Origin: Bacterioplanes sp.
Lineage (GTDB): Bacteria > Pseudomonadota > Gammaproteobacteria > Pseudomonadales > Oceanobacteraceae
NCBI GenBank assembly: GCA_014859445.1
Contig: JACUUC010000009.1
Location: 1 to 64,000 of the forward strand
Direction: 5' to 3'
DNA: 64,000 nucleotides
This document shows positions 55,240 to 62,691 of this stretch, piece after piece. Under the pieces are notes generated by a model. That model was not told the origin of the DNA. It did not search any database and was given only the letters and a program-made list of their open reading frames with translations. A program made the translations under genes and the position numbers. Position 1 is the first letter of the stretch; the number at the start of each line of letters is the position of its first letter.

Positions 55240-56749
<1,510 letters not shown>

Positions 56750-56983
56750 GATGGCGTTCACCGCGCAGAAAGTGCGCAACCGTACCCTAAGGCCATCGGC
56801 ACGACAAGCGCTTGACGCGACCATTTTGCGCCAATGCGCGCAATCCAATCCATGGTCACGCAAAAATGTCGATTGCCATCATCATAGCCCTGTCATCTAT
56901 TTCCCTTTACAATCACAACACACGTGTAAGCGCCGATCGATATTCCGCGTTTCCATTGCCTGTCACATAGCCAAGGAGCGCCT

Positions 56984-58354
56984 ATGGCTGGCCTCGACTT
57001 ATTTCGTGTTTATTCACGCACCATCACGCTGCTCGCTGGTGTGACGATCGCCTCGCTGAGTCAGGCTCAAACCGATGCGTTATCGTTCCAACAAGCGCAA
57101 CAGCAATTACTAGAACGCTCTTGGGCGTATCAGGCACAGCAACACGATAGCAATGCGTGGCAACAACAAGCCGACGCCACCAAATCACTGTACTTACCTC
57201 GTGTTGAGTTGTTGGCCGCGGGCATTCGCTACGAAAAACAATACGAGTTTGATACTCGGCCGATCACGCCTTCCCCCATTAGCGACACGTATTTCAAGCA
57301 AGGCATCCGCACGCAAGTCAATGCCACTTGGCCACTCTATGCCGGTGGTAAGATTGATGCCAGCCGCGCCCAAGCAAACGCGAAGGTTGATGAATCTCGT
57401 GCGCATGTCTTGCAGCGCAGCGAGCAGCTTTCGCGCCAACTCATTCAATACTACTTTGGCGTACAACTGTTTGCCGCCGTTGCCCATGTTCGACAAGAAG
57501 CCTTTGATGCCGTTGCCGACCATGCCCATCAAGCAGAGCGTTTTGAACAGCAAGGCTTAATTAGCCGACTTGATCGTTTACAAGCCGATGTGGCACTGAG
57601 CGAAGCGCGCCGTGATTTGGCCAAAGCCAAGCGCGATTTAACCAATGCGCAGGCCGCGCTGCAAAGCACCTTAGTGAATGAACACGCAGTCTGTCCAACC
57701 ACCCCCCTGTTTGTTAACCACATCAGCCCAGCACCATTGGAAGAATGGATTGAGTCTGGCTTAGCGTTACACAGTGGTTTGGCCATACTGGCCGCGAAAA
57801 GCCAACAAGCGCAGCAACAAATTCGTATCGAACGCAGTCAATTGCGACCACAGGCTTTTGCCTTCACCACCTACGAGTTCAATAAAGATGCCACGCCACT
57901 GACCGAACCCGATTGGATCATGGGTGTCGGGGTGCGTTTGCCCTTGAGTACCGAATTAAACCGTTCACGCATGGTGGCTGCGGCACATTTACGCGCAGCG
58001 CAAGCATCCGCGCTCACACAACAAGCTCAAGCCGATATCGAACTGGCCATCAGCAGCAGCTATCGCCAACTCGAACAAGCCATTGAGCAATATCAACTGC
58101 TGGCCGCCGACCACGAACTGGCTGAAGAAAACGCTCGCTTACAAGCGGCGGCCTATCGCAACCAACAAGCCACCTCACTGGACGTGACTCAAGCCCGCGT
58201 TGCCTTAACTCGCAGTCACGTGCAGATGGCCAGTGCGGCGTTCGACTACATTCAAGCCTTGGCCGATCTGTTAATGGCCAGTGGTCGCTTGGCTCACTTT
58301 CCTGATTATTTCGGTGATATCACGCTGGATACACACCTACCTTGTGGAGCTTAA
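56984..58354 (+). CDS. TolC-family outer-membrane efflux protein
   Basis: A 456-residue outer-membrane channel of the TolC family with signal peptide (TITLLAGVTIASLSQAQ) and two repeated helical hairpin halves (LERSWAYQAQQHDSNAWQQQ and GLALHSGLAILAAKSQQAQQ). Typical strand VELLAAGIRYE and the near-C-terminal RNQQATSLDVTQARVALTRS are present. It starts a four-gene plus-strand operon with an HlyD protein (2 nt gap) and two ABC-2 permeases. Together they form a trans-envelope exporter. The 234-nt gap to tsaC holds the divergent promoters. Confidence 0.87.
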   Translation: MAGLDLFRVYSRTITLLAGVTIASLSQAQTDALSFQQAQQQLLERSWAYQAQQHDSNAWQQQADATKSLYLPRVELLAAGIRYEKQYEFDTRPITPSPISDTYFKQGIRTQVNATWPLYAGGKIDASRAQANAKVDESRAHVLQRSEQLSRQLIQYYFGVQLFAAVAHVRQEAFDAVADHAHQAERFEQQGLISRLDRLQADVALSEARRDLAKAKRDLTNAQAALQSTLVNEHAVCPTTPLFVNHISPAPLEEWIESGLALHSGLAILAAKSQQAQQQIRIERSQLRPQAFAFTTYEFNKDATPLTEPDWIMGVGVRLPLSTELNRSRMVAAAHLRAAQASALTQQAQADIELAISSSYRQLEQAIEQYQLLAADHELAEENARLQAAAYRNQQATSLDVTQARVALTRSHVQMASAAFDYIQALADLLMASGRLAHFPDYFGDITLDTHLPCGA

Positions 58355-58356
58355 CC

Positions 58357-59328
58357 ATGAAAAAACCCATCTTATTCGTCATTGCCATTGTATTGCTGGG
58401 CGTGATTGGGCTGGGGCTTTGGGCCAGCGCGCAACCCAAATCGGAGTATTTGCATGGCGAAGTTGAAATTCGTGAAATTCGTTTGTCGGCCAAAATTACC
58501 GGACGCATTCATGAATTGCATGTGCGTGAAGGCGAGCAGGTGGAAATGGGGCAATTACTGGTCACCCTCGACGGGCCAGAAATTCGCGCTCGCTTACAAC
58601 AAGCCGAAGCGGCACGAGATGCCGCCCAAGCCCTCAGCGACAAAGCCAATGCCGGTGCTCGAGATGAAGAAATCACCATGGCTCGCCTCGATTGGGAACG
58701 CGCGATGGTGCAAGCCGAACTGGCACAATCCACGTTAAACCGGCTGCAAGAATTATTCGATGAGGGCTTGGTATCACGCCAGCAATTTGATGAAGTACGC
58801 GCCCAAAATCAGGCCAGTCAGCGCCAAGCCGAAGCGGCCGAGTCACGCTACCTAATGGCGCAGAGTGGTGCACGCAGTGAAGAACGTCGCGCCGGTGATG
58901 CCCAAGCACGGCAAGCAGCGGCAGCCGTTGCCGAAGCCGAAGCCTTGGAAAGCGAAACCCGTATTTTATCGCCCATTAATGGTGAAATTGCCGCCATTAA
59001 TATTCGTCGTGGTGAACTGGCTCCCGCCGGAGCGGCCGTATTAACCGTGATTGATCCGAGTGATGTCTGGATTGTGGTCAATATTCGTGAAGATTATCTG
59101 CGCGGACTCAGTGTCGGCCAAGTGTATCAAGCCTATGTGCCCGCACTGGATGAAACCTTGTCGTTCAAGGTCTCACGGTTGAATCCACTGCCCACCTTCG
59201 CCACGTGGAAACAAGCCGCGAACACCCCCGGCTATGACTTGCGCACCTTCCAAGTGGAAGCGCGCCCGGTCTCACCCGACCCTCGCTTGCGTGCTGGCAT
59301 GTCGGTGATTAAAGAGATTCGTCGATGA
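58357..59328 (+). CDS. HlyD-family membrane fusion protein (YbhG-like)
   Basis: A 323-residue periplasmic adaptor with an N-terminal membrane helix (ILFVIAIVLLGVIGLGLWAS), half-lipoyl motifs VEIREIRLSAKITGRIHELH and INGEIAAINIRRGELAPAGA, and a long alpha-helical hairpin (58600-58950) with Ala/Glu/Gln-rich coil. It bridges an inner-membrane transporter to TolC. GGAG about 8 nt before the ATG makes 58357 the natural start. Its stop overlaps the next gene's ATG (ATGA). Confidence 0.9.
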   Translation: MKKPILFVIAIVLLGVIGLGLWASAQPKSEYLHGEVEIREIRLSAKITGRIHELHVREGEQVEMGQLLVTLDGPEIRARLQQAEAARDAAQALSDKANAGARDEEITMARLDWERAMVQAELAQSTLNRLQELFDEGLVSRQQFDEVRAQNQASQRQAEAAESRYLMAQSGARSEERRAGDAQARQAAAAVAEAEALESETRILSPINGEIAAINIRRGELAPAGAAVLTVIDPSDVWIVVNIREDYLRGLSVGQVYQAYVPALDETLSFKVSRLNPLPTFATWKQAANTPGYDLRTFQVEARPVSPDPRLRAGMSVIKEIRR

Positions 59329-60491
59329 AAGCAACCCTCGCCACTGCGCAGCGCGAGCTACAGCAATGGCGCAGCGCGCGCAGTGATCGCATTCTGCTGG
59401 CACTGCCACTCATACTGGGTTTATTGGTGTGGTGGCTGTTTGCCAGTGGCAGTCCACAGTCATTGCCAATCACCGTCGTCGATTTGGACCAAAGCGGTCA
59501 TTCGCGTGCGCTGGTGCGTTTAATCGATGCCACGCCAGCCGTCGCCATCGCTCATCGAACCGATAACGCTGCGGAGGCACAGCAACATCTACTGACACGG
59601 TACAGCTATGCGGTGTTGATTATTCCTCACGATTTCAGCCAACACCTCAACCGAGGCACCGGCGCCACACTGATTTTGCAACACAACGCTCAGTTTGCCA
59701 CGCACTCATCACAAATTGTGCGTGCCGTGCGCTCGGTCAGCACCACCTACTCGGCCGCTGCGCGCGCCAGTTTGTACAGCAGCCAAGGCGTGCGCCCCGA
59801 ACAAGCCATCGCCTTGGCCATGCCGATTCAGGTTGAGGCCACCGCATTGTTCAACGAAAGCATGGACTACGAGCAATTTTTAGCCGCCACGCTCATTCCT
59901 GCGTTATTACAAATTCTCATTATGGTTGCCGTCGTCAGCGCCATTGGTCGCGAGCTGCGCGATGGCACCGCTCAACAATGGCTCGACCATGCTCAAGGGC
60001 AGCTAGTCGCTGCGGTGGTGGGTAAATTACTGCCCTATTTTGTCGTTTTTATCGGCTACGGATTGGCGTTTTTGCTGTGGTTTGCTTTTAGCCGAGGCAT
60101 GCACATCGAAGGCAGCCTAGCCGCGGTTTTATTGGGTTTGCTGTTGTTGGTGTCGGCATCTATGGCGCTCGGCGTGTTATTGATTGCCCTAGCACGAAAC
60201 TTACGTATGGCACTGAGCTTAACCGGTGTCTACACCGCACCGGCATTCGCCTTTGCCGGGCAAGCGTACCCACTGGTTGCCATGCCCCCTGCGGCTCAGG
60301 CATTGGCCAGCACCTTGCCATTAACGCACTGGCTCGACATTCAAAATCAACAATGGCTTGCGGGCGCTCCGCTCAGCACAGCTTGGCCGAGTCTGTGGAT
60401 ACTGCTGTTCATGACGCTGGTGCCGTTATGGCTTGGTTTACGTTTATTGCAACGCTCCGCCTTTCAACAAGAACAGTGGGGGGCGCGATGA
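59325..60491 (+). CDS. ABC-2 type membrane permease, first subunit
   Basis: A 388-residue inner-membrane protein with the YbhS/YbhR-like layout: one N-terminal helix (ILLALPLILGLLVWWLFASG), a periplasmic domain of about 130 residues with PITVVDLDQSGHSRALVRL, then five to six helices to the C-terminus (for example LIPALLQILIMVAVVSAIG and VLLGLLLLVSASMALGVLLI). It overlaps hlyD and the next permease by 4 nt each. In E. coli the equivalents work with the ATPase YbhF; no ATPase gene is present in this operon. Confidence 0.87.
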   Translation: MKATLATAQRELQQWRSARSDRILLALPLILGLLVWWLFASGSPQSLPITVVDLDQSGHSRALVRLIDATPAVAIAHRTDNAAEAQQHLLTRYSYAVLIIPHDFSQHLNRGTGATLILQHNAQFATHSSQIVRAVRSVSTTYSAAARASLYSSQGVRPEQAIALAMPIQVEATALFNESMDYEQFLAATLIPALLQILIMVAVVSAIGRELRDGTAQQWLDHAQGQLVAAVVGKLLPYFVVFIGYGLAFLLWFAFSRGMHIEGSLAAVLLGLLLLVSASMALGVLLIALARNLRMALSLTGVYTAPAFAFAGQAYPLVAMPPAAQALASTLPLTHWLDIQNQQWLAGAPLSTAWPSLWILLFMTLVPLWLGLRLLQRSAFQQEQWGAR

Positions 60492-61603
60492 GTTTTCTGC
60501 ACAGCTATCGTCACACCTGGCAATTACTTTTCGCGGATAAAGGCGCGATTTTATTATTGTTGCTCGCGGGTATTATGTATTCCTTTTACTACCCATTACC
60601 GTACAGCAACGAAACCGTATCGAATGTCCCTTACGCCATCGTCGACTTTGACCAATCGCCATCGTCGCGACAATACATTCGCGCCCTTACAGCCTCGCCC
60701 AACCTCTCCTTAACCGCCATCCTGCACGATGCCGACGAGTTGGAGCGGTATCTCTTTGCCGGTGACATCATGGGCGCAGTATTCATTCCGCCGCATTTTC
60801 ATGAATCGTTGCTGACACAGCAGCAAACCACCATACAGGTGGCCGGTCACGGTGGTTACTTACTGGCCAGCGGCACCTTGCTTGGCGCTGCGAGTGAAGC
60901 CACCCTCACCTTAAGCATTGGTTTAAGCGGGCATATTTTAGAGGCACATGGCGTACCCGCGAGCATGGCGAACGATCTGCGCAACCCTGTCCAGCTTGAG
61001 ACCATACCACTCTATAATCCACAAGAAGGCTATGGCAGCTATGTTGTCCCGGCCGTAATGATCATGATCATTCAGCAAACCTTGCTCATGGGCATTACCT
61101 TGATGCTGGGCACCCTGACCGAGCAACAGCGTATGCCCGCAGGACGAGAGGCCTATCTGGGCATGCTGGCCGCCTTCAGTAGCATTGGTTTTATCAACTG
61201 TTTGTATTTCTTTGGTTTTGTCACTTGGTATCACGACTACCCCAGCCAAGGGGAGCTACTGAACATGATCGTATTTGCCGCGCTGTTTTCAATGACGGTG
61301 GCCGCTATGGCGCTATGGCTGGCTCGCTTTTTTCAGAATCGAGAGCAAGGCATGCAGCTACTCTTGGCCACAGCAATTCCCATGTTCTTTTTAGCCGGTT
61401 ATGCGTGGCCCGTTGAAGCCATGCCCACCGCCTTACAATACCTGCGTTGGTTACTGCCTAGCACGGCGGGTATACAAGGATTCATCGCCATCAATCAGAT
61501 GGGAGCGGAGTTAACACACGTCGGACGTGAAATGGCGATATTGGCAGGGCTTTGCCTAACCTTCGTTATACTGGGGTTGTACGCTTATCGTCGTCAACGC
61601 TAA
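60488..61603 (+). CDS. ABC-2 type membrane permease, second subunit
   Basis: A 371-residue partner of the preceding permease with the same architecture: N-terminal helix (ILLLLLAGIMYSFYYPLPYS), periplasmic domain beginning VPYAIVDFDQSPSSRQYIRA, then a membrane block (VVPAVMIMIIQQTLLMGITL, MLLATAIPMFFLAGYAWP-like, LAGLCLTFVILGLYA). The frame continues to 60353, but the ATG at 60488 overlaps the preceding stop as ATGA, giving translational coupling. Its stop meets the convergent dprA stop. Confidence 0.88.
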   Translation: MSFLHSYRHTWQLLFADKGAILLLLLAGIMYSFYYPLPYSNETVSNVPYAIVDFDQSPSSRQYIRALTASPNLSLTAILHDADELERYLFAGDIMGAVFIPPHFHESLLTQQQTTIQVAGHGGYLLASGTLLGAASEATLTLSIGLSGHILEAHGVPASMANDLRNPVQLETIPLYNPQEGYGSYVVPAVMIMIIQQTLLMGITLMLGTLTEQQRMPAGREAYLGMLAAFSSIGFINCLYFFGFVTWYHDYPSQGELLNMIVFAALFSMTVAAMALWLARFFQNREQGMQLLLATAIPMFFLAGYAWPVEAMPTALQYLRWLLPSTAGIQGFIAINQMGAELTHVGREMAILAGLCLTFVILGLYAYRRQR

Positions 61604-62691
61604 CGTAAGCGCACATAACCACCGGGAACCTGCTGCAACCAGCCCTGGAGTTCCAATTCGAGTAATTCCGGTAATAATTGCGCCATACTCAATTGGCTAC
61701 GCAACCCAATCACGTCGATCGGGGTTAGGCTGTAATCAATGACACTGACTAAGACTGGCACGGCACTGGTTGACCCATGGGCAAATAAATCGGCCTGACT
61801 TTGCATGGGCAATGAGAGGCACTCACGCAAGATGTCATCGGCACCTTCCACTAACAAGGCACCGTCGCGTATCAGTTGATGACAGCCGCGACTCAGTGGA
61901 TTGGTCACCGCCCCCGGTAGCGCCATCACATCTCGCCCTTGCTCCGCCGCCAAACGCGCCGTAATCAGCGTGCCACTTTTGATGGCGGCTTCCACCACGA
62001 CGGTGGCGCGCGACAATCCACTGATGATGCGATTTCGAGCCGGAAAATGACTGGCATGCGCTGCCGTTCCCGGCGGAAATTCGGACAATAACAAGCCGTG
62101 CTGCACAATCATGTGCGCTAACCCTAAGTGTTTTGCCGGATAAATCACATCCAAACCCGAACCCAACACAGCAATGGTTTTTCCGCCGTCAATTGCGCCT
62201 TGATGCACCGCCCCATCAATACCGACGGCCAAACCACTGACTACAGTCACACCCGCTGCCGCCAATTGCTTGGCCGTTTGTTGCGCCCACTCACGGGCGT
62301 ACGGTGTTGGGTTGCGACTGCCGACCATGGCGACACACGGGCCTTGCAGCACACTCAAATCGCCCTGATAAAACAGCAAGATAGGCGCATCACGCAAACT
62401 AGATAGCGCGTCGGGATAGGGAGCAAGACCCGCCAATAACACACCACACTGCGGTTGCTGACGCCACTGCACAACGGCTTCGAAACCGGCTGTTAACGAT
62501 GAATCCGTCAGCCAGCGTTGCGCTGCATCGGGACGAAGACCGTACGCCACCAAATCGGCAAGCGTTAAACGGGCAAGATCACAGGGATTATTTAGACGCT
62601 GACGAATGGCGTTGGCACTGACCAGACCAACACCGGGGAGGCGCAGTAAACGCCACCACGCCAACAATGACTCATCCTTGAGCATGGGCAA
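61600..62691 (-). CDS. dprA: DNA processing protein DprA (Smf)
   Basis: DprA binds incoming single-stranded DNA and loads RecA in natural transformation. The 363-residue protein has a SAM-like N-terminus (WWRLLRLPGVGLVSANAIRQ), the Rossmann-like core VAMVGSRNPTPYAREWAQQ, VSGLAVGIDGAVHQGAIDGG, FPARNRIISGLSRATVVVEA and SGTLITARLAAEQGRDVMAL, then a small winged-helix-like C-terminus. It follows lysM by 24 nt. In related genomes tsaC comes next; here the export operon intervenes. Confidence 0.94.
   Translation of the reverse strand: MPMLKDESLLAWWRLLRLPGVGLVSANAIRQRLNNPCDLARLTLADLVAYGLRPDAAQRWLTDSSLTAGFEAVVQWRQQPQCGVLLAGLAPYPDALSSLRDAPILLFYQGDLSVLQGPCVAMVGSRNPTPYAREWAQQTAKQLAAAGVTVVSGLAVGIDGAVHQGAIDGGKTIAVLGSGLDVIYPAKHLGLAHMIVQHGLLLSEFPPGTAAHASHFPARNRIISGLSRATVVVEAAIKSGTLITARLAAEQGRDVMALPGAVTNPLSRGCHQLIRDGALLVEGADDILRECLSLPMQSQADLFAHGSTSAVPVLVSVIDYSLTPIDVIGLRSQLSMAQLLPELLELELQGWLQQVPGGYVRLR

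Follow-up and report, generated by a model that had tools for sequence, protein, structure and literature searches.

How does a pair of ABC-2 permeases work when no ATP-binding cassette (ABC) ATPase is encoded beside it? The question is raised by a four-gene operon of Bacterioplanes sp. (assembly GCA_014859445.1), located in the first 64,000 nucleotides of contig JACUUC010000009.1 (the window), which encodes a TolC-family channel, an HlyD-family adaptor and two permeases, termed P1 and P2. An earlier note, made from the sequence alone, described the four genes as tightly packed and as placed on the opposite strand at the dprA-tsaC junction, with their end overlapping dprA, and it found the expected YbhF-like ATPase missing. 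The coordinates and Pfam matches (Table 1) agreed with the packing and the position. The absence of the ATPase from the operon was borne out by Pfam and by the list of open reading frames (ORFs): between tsaC and dprA, all remaining ORFs of at least 100 amino acids overlap the four genes, and therefore there is no space for an ATPase gene. Most likely, the operon encodes a tripartite exporter that has ceased to depend on its own ATPase (we infer both export and its drive). On balance, it probably belongs to a widespread family of tripartite exporters that lack a nucleotide-binding domain (NBD) and have long been separate, and it would have been acquired horizontally.

The absence of the ATPase is not a local loss. 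We searched 55 genomes (the window's own and relatives) with P2, and the three best places outside its own genome (G038, G005 and G042, with 42%, 39% and 29% identity to P2, respectively) were all TolC-HlyD-P1-P2 loci without an ATPase. Distant homologues read in the relatives had an NBD fused to the permease or within 200 nt of it (15/15). The expectation of an ATPase in this operon was thus not supported, since the ATPase-bearing homologues form a group apart and none is present in the nearest relatives found. A scan of species genomes yielded 152 confirmed relatives, of which the best 80 were kept, so that this sample favours close kin; NBDs in the loci were called on stop-to-stop ORFs. In these 80 loci, HlyD, P1 and P2 were consecutive on one strand and no NBD was found inside the operon (0/80), while two loci (L162 and L173) had an NBD elsewhere in the fetched stretch. 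A less selected sample was obtained by searching 398 genomes of the phylum with a P2 profile. Besides the window's own locus, 37 places scored at least 185 bits, none with an NBD inside the operon; 35 were HlyD-P1-P2 loci, the P1 and P2 genes were fused in the other two (L272 and L276), and an NBD was present elsewhere in the stretch in L268, L272 and L274. Of the lower-scoring places (at most 139 bits), 23 were chosen by hand from the same match list, and in 23/23 the permease had an NBD fused to it or no more than 200 nt away. Plasmid loci, including those of Prevotella and Parabacteroides, also had no NBD inside the operon (0/11); an ABC-F gene lies 3 kb from the operon in the Parabacteroides plasmid (L261). 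Overall, the operon carried an ATPase in none of 131 related loci (80 + 37 + 11 + 3), a number that includes repeats such as L154 and L116. HlyD accompanied P1-P2 in every locus examined, and TolC was detected in 75/80, 27/37 and 6/11 loci of the three larger samples. P1 and P2 formed a single ORF without an NBD domain in L257, as they did in L272 and L276.

Phylogenetic analysis separated the permeases in the same way. We collected 203 non-redundant permeases, after dropping the P1 of L267 (over 430 amino acids). In a tree of 84 of them (part hand-picked, part random), the NBD-linked, P1 and P2 sequences each occupied one side of a branch, with supports of 99, 99 and 100 in the Shimodaira-Hasegawa-like approximate likelihood-ratio test (SH-aLRT), and the same three groups appeared in a midpoint-rooted FastTree of all 203. 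Two assignments should be mentioned. L137_P2_501, whose stretch contains no NBD, was counted among the NBD-linked sequences in the 84-sequence tree and in the motif scoring, following its FastTree placement. The halves of the fused L272 permease had at first been labelled NBD-linked because of the ATPase behind the operon, but were grouped with P1 and P2.

The NBD contact of ABC-2 permeases, known as the coupling helix, is formed by a motif between transmembrane helices 2 and 3 (TM2 and TM3). We scored this motif at 10 positions, for which the consensus of the NBD-linked permeases between TM2 and TM3 is RERERGTMENLLATPVRPLEIMLGK. The NBD-linked permeases matched 8.69 positions (n = 45), P1 2.74 (n = 80) and P2 1.55 (n = 78). 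The coupling stretch was 25 residues long in 45/45 NBD-linked sequences, compared to 18–21 residues in 55/78 P2 sequences, and the NBD-linked two-permease operons that were compared kept the motif in both permeases (8/8). The window's P1 has a vestigial motif, GRELRDGT...WL. The AlphaFold2 model of P1 (predicted local distance difference test, pLDDT, 91.8) contained a short helix at residues 216–222, the coupling position, and that of P2 (pLDDT 89.5) had no helix between residues 212 and 220. The earlier note had proposed checking both permeases for a coupling helix, and the outcome is that it is lost in P2 and degenerate in P1.

Foldseek identified the ABC type-V transmembrane fold in both P1 and P2, as did VIA-align for P2, and the two models matched the membrane domains of ABCH, ABCA and ABCG exporters. 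P2 aligned with Tribolium ABCH-9C (8z01) at Z 21.7 over 346 residues (root-mean-square deviation, rmsd, 7.7) and with ABCG1 (7r8d) at Z 20.3 (rmsd 3.1 over 233 residues). The chains of such structures (e.g. 8z01) contain an NBD, unlike P1 and P2. Among the features expected of an ATP-powered exporter, the operon has the type-V fold; the coupling helix is lost in the window's P2 and vestigial in its P1, and no NBD lies in the operon, here or in the 131 related loci. P2 also had a weak match to the YhgE/Pip family (TIGR03062; 4.1e-7, 29.8 bits vs. a curated cut-off of 102.2), whose members we take to be ABC-2-like proteins without an NBD. Operons that resemble the HlyD-RbbA-YhhJ type were found at L118-L119, L126, L128-L131 and L314. 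Like the window's operon, Escherichia coli YbhGFSR (PMC7190983; YbhFSR is covered there and in PMC8277102) combines an HlyD-family adaptor with two ABC2_membrane_3-like permeases. Unlike P1 and P2, YbhGFSR and the HlyD-RbbA-YhhJ type carry NBDs, have the coupling helix in both permeases and belong to the NBD-linked group of the tree.

We suggest that the P1-P2 pair, with its type-V fold, would operate with no NBD, together with an HlyD adaptor and in most cases a TolC channel. P1 and P2 would pair as a heterodimer and make up the inner-membrane portion of a channel or pump, and a small hydrophobic or amphipathic compound may be passed on through HlyD and TolC. The energy might be drawn from a gradient of substrate or ions, or from the loading of cargo at the inner membrane, with no dedicated NBD. 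It is conceivable, at somewhat less than even chances, that the P1-P2 family as a whole consists of ABC-2 descendants that lack an ATPase and are driven otherwise, i.e., ABC membrane domains that became secondary transporters in several phyla.

The gene set itself is already known from Helicobacter pylori. PMC9570263 describes the HP1489-HP1488-HP1487-HP1486 tripartite system with the four gene kinds, notes the absence of an ATPase, and reports that HP1489-HP1486 deletions lower motility and flagella; PMC10376887 tabulates HP1487-HP1489 as resistance-nodulation-division (RND) or ABC efflux. As the system is defined in PMC9570263, the window's locus is of the same type, with TolC, HlyD and two ABC-2 permeases in one operon and no ATPase in the locus, a likeness drawn from the description. 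The H. pylori system differs in belonging to another phylum and in being tied to sheathed flagella, and its authors assume an ATPase supplied in trans, with HP0853 as the candidate; their comparison of 18–19 ABC ATPases gave no clear candidate. In the portions of the open-access literature available, no ATPase-less family is described beyond the H. pylori locus, and the available text of PMC11989028, PMC3547906 and PMC10434189 describes no case as ATPase-less.

An ABC ATPase encoded elsewhere could instead power P1-P2 in trans, the candidate in the window's genome being a DrrA/YadG-like ATPase that also serves its own permease. We consider this rather unlikely. The genome is 99.9% complete and has 47 PF00005 matches, of which 30 were read as loci and the remaining 17 judged from the match table only. 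Among the eight best RbbA-scoring matches, DrrA was the best NCBIfam match in two (C39 and C12, the latter at 17 kb), each of which adjoins its own ABC-2 permease; the best NCBIfam matches of the other six were PotG, CysA, PhnT2, LptB, NtrCD and YejF. A search for an orphan YbhF-type ATPase, as the earlier note had suggested, thus found none of the DrrA/YbhF type among the 47 matches (17 by table only), an ATPase of another type being possible. A near full-length DrrA-like ATPase was present in 8/8 genomes with the operon, all below the family cut-off, which agrees with supply in trans; however, the best one lay beside an ORF with multiple transmembrane helices in 6/8 loci (L323-L326, L328 and L329; L322 and L327 were not resolved by the ORF caller). 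Contact with an NBD should also have conserved the coupling helix, which P2 has lost and P1 retains in degenerate form. Of the two possibilities left by the earlier note, an ATPase elsewhere or a permease pair working without one, the second is favoured by the loss of the coupling helix and by the lack of an orphan DrrA/YbhF-type ATPase.

Several observations weigh against an NBD-free exporter, and some of them favour supply in trans. A portion of the coupling motif survives in P1 (R 66%, E 71%, G 49%, T 46%, K 84%), and this remnant, with the short helix, could still meet a foreign NBD. The Parabacteroides P2 (L261) also keeps part of the motif. The corresponding operon of Helicobacter anseris is reported to contain an ATPase gene, whose orphan orthologue HP0853 is the H. 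pylori candidate, under study (PMC9570263). Because of HP0853 and the partial Parabacteroides P2 motif, our assessment shifted slightly from the NBD-free reading towards supply in trans. L272 (2244–6820) has a fused P1-P2 followed by a second HlyD-like gene and, ~0.4 kb behind this last operon-like gene on the same strand, an ABC ATPase gene; it is a possible exception or an unrelated operon. TolC was missing from the fetched stretch in 5/80, 10/37 and 5/11 loci, some of these stretches being cut. RND pumps use a charged relay within the membrane. In the models of P1 and P2, a relay of this kind was rejected: the few conserved charged residues in or near the membrane helices (R209, E210 and K234 in P1; R285 and E286 in P2) lie near helix ends on the cytosolic side and give no sign of a proton relay.

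P1-P2 may also no longer pump at all, in which case the operon would be a passive or structural envelope complex, e.g. a gated leak or a scaffold. No energy module was found, and PMC9570263 considers a structural role in flagellum stability; however, P1-P2 are accompanied by HlyD in all loci examined and by TolC at the frequencies given above, and the same paper refers to an hp1489 mutant sensitive to ethidium bromide, an effect that may be indirect according to its authors. This explanation is distinctly improbable. A recent loss of the ATPase from the window's operon, for which nothing speaks beyond its absence here, is extremely unlikely, because the ATPase-linked homologues form a separate group and the close relatives G038, G005 and G042 have no ATPase in the same operon, as is the case in 131/131 related loci, including those of other phyla.

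If ABC-2 permeases do export without an NBD, they would be a widespread natural exception to the rule that ABC-type exporters are driven by ATP, and many operons annotated as ABC transporter permeases would be mis-assigned in mechanism. With the coupling helix gone from one permease and decayed in the other, the question can be tested directly; this erosion also has a bearing on the search for the ATPase of the H. pylori system, which continues.

We compared the dprA-tsaC junction in 33 same-family genomes and resolved it in 28, with distances taken between alignment ends (the other five were G003 and G015, which were not retrieved, G027 and G029, where the contig ends, and G031, which gave no dprA). 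In 16/28 genomes, tsaC was within 84–170 bp of dprA. The other 12 had 0.9 to over 10 kb between the two genes; in two of these, G006 and G012, stretches of 13 and 10 kb, respectively, did not extend as far as tsaC, which may reflect rearrangement. The cargo at the junction included CheW-CZB, histidine kinase and BLUF genes in G008, a helix-turn-helix gene and a weakly RelE-like gene in G019, a transglutaminase-like gene in G012 and a BCSC_C gene in G006. Insertions thus recur at this junction within the bacterial family (loci L095-L109), and the window's operon is one among several different occupants. In the 84-permease tree, the window's P1 and P2 were both closest to those of Alkalimonas, Alkalilimnicola and Janthinobacterium, not to same-family G005, and the pair appears to have moved together, horizontally. 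The operon was inserted, since tsaC directly follows dprA in 16/28 genomes and the nearest kin of the operon are in distant taxa; its acquisition looks horizontal. The note's mobile cassette held in part: horizontal acquisition and a recurrent insertion site agree with it, but there is no space for a mobility gene, terminal repeats are lacking and the composition is like that of the flanks. GC contents were 0.52–0.56 for the four operon genes and 0.51–0.56 for tsaC, hemF, aroE, dprA and lysM, and the two flanks had no direct or inverted repeat of more than 9 nt in common. With this composition and a longest exact flank repeat of 9 nt, a young mobile element was rejected.

Table 1 Features of the operon and its borders (positions in the window).
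Feature	Position	Strand	Evidence and remarks
TolC-family outer-membrane channel	56984..58354	+	Pfam OEP 1.7e-45
HlyD-family periplasmic adaptor	58357..59328	+	Pfam HlyD_3 5.6e-17 and HlyD_D23; NCBIfam PRK03598 1.7e-44, below cut-off
Permease 1 (P1), ABC2_membrane_3	59325..60491	+	Pfam 8.4e-46; ABC type-V-like fold
Permease 2 (P2), ABC2_membrane_3	60488..61603	+	Pfam 1.5e-42; coupling-helix motif lost, loop shortened
dprA	61600..62691	-	Pfam DNA_processg_A 2.6e-76; right border of insertion
tsaC (Sua5/YciO/YrdC)	56204..56752, start codon uncertain by few bases	-	Pfam Sua5_yciO_yrdC 1.5e-44; left border of insertion

The gap between the TolC and HlyD genes is 2 nt, the HlyD/P1 and P1/P2 overlaps are 4 nt each, and P2 shares a 4-nt overlap with the antiparallel dprA. 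The HlyD start was set at the ATG at 58357, with the TTG at 58342 in the ORF list as an upstream alternative. The translations of lysM, hemF and aroE (names from the earlier note) are conserved in relatives and keep their order there, while def would lie at or past the end of the window. A promoter and terminator scan gave a signal no better than shuffles. An anti-phage system was rejected as PADLOC gave no match for three of the four operon proteins (TolC was left out).

Neighbour clustering yielded no partner gene, although one may exist: the 14 largest clusters were almost only Stenotrophomonas loci, and many of the clustered ORFs were antisense frames. L175, from a record labelled Bacillus subtilis, fell in a neighbour cluster with Stenotrophomonas loci, and the P2 of L151, from a Pedobacter metagenome-assembled genome, was 44% identical to the query; both assemblies look contaminated or misbinned. 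On an Enterobacter cloacae conjugative plasmid (L257, 4881–8130), HlyD and the fused P1-P2 lie between IS1 and IS110 genes, and the matches to P1 include similar ones on Klebsiella and Citrobacter plasmids. In Agrobacterium (L137, 501–1589), a lone permease of the ATPase-linked type lies beside an IS5 transposase gene with no ATPase in the stretch. On a Rhizobium plasmid (L134, 7074–8591), a gene annotated as a mechanosensitive channel directly follows the two permeases.

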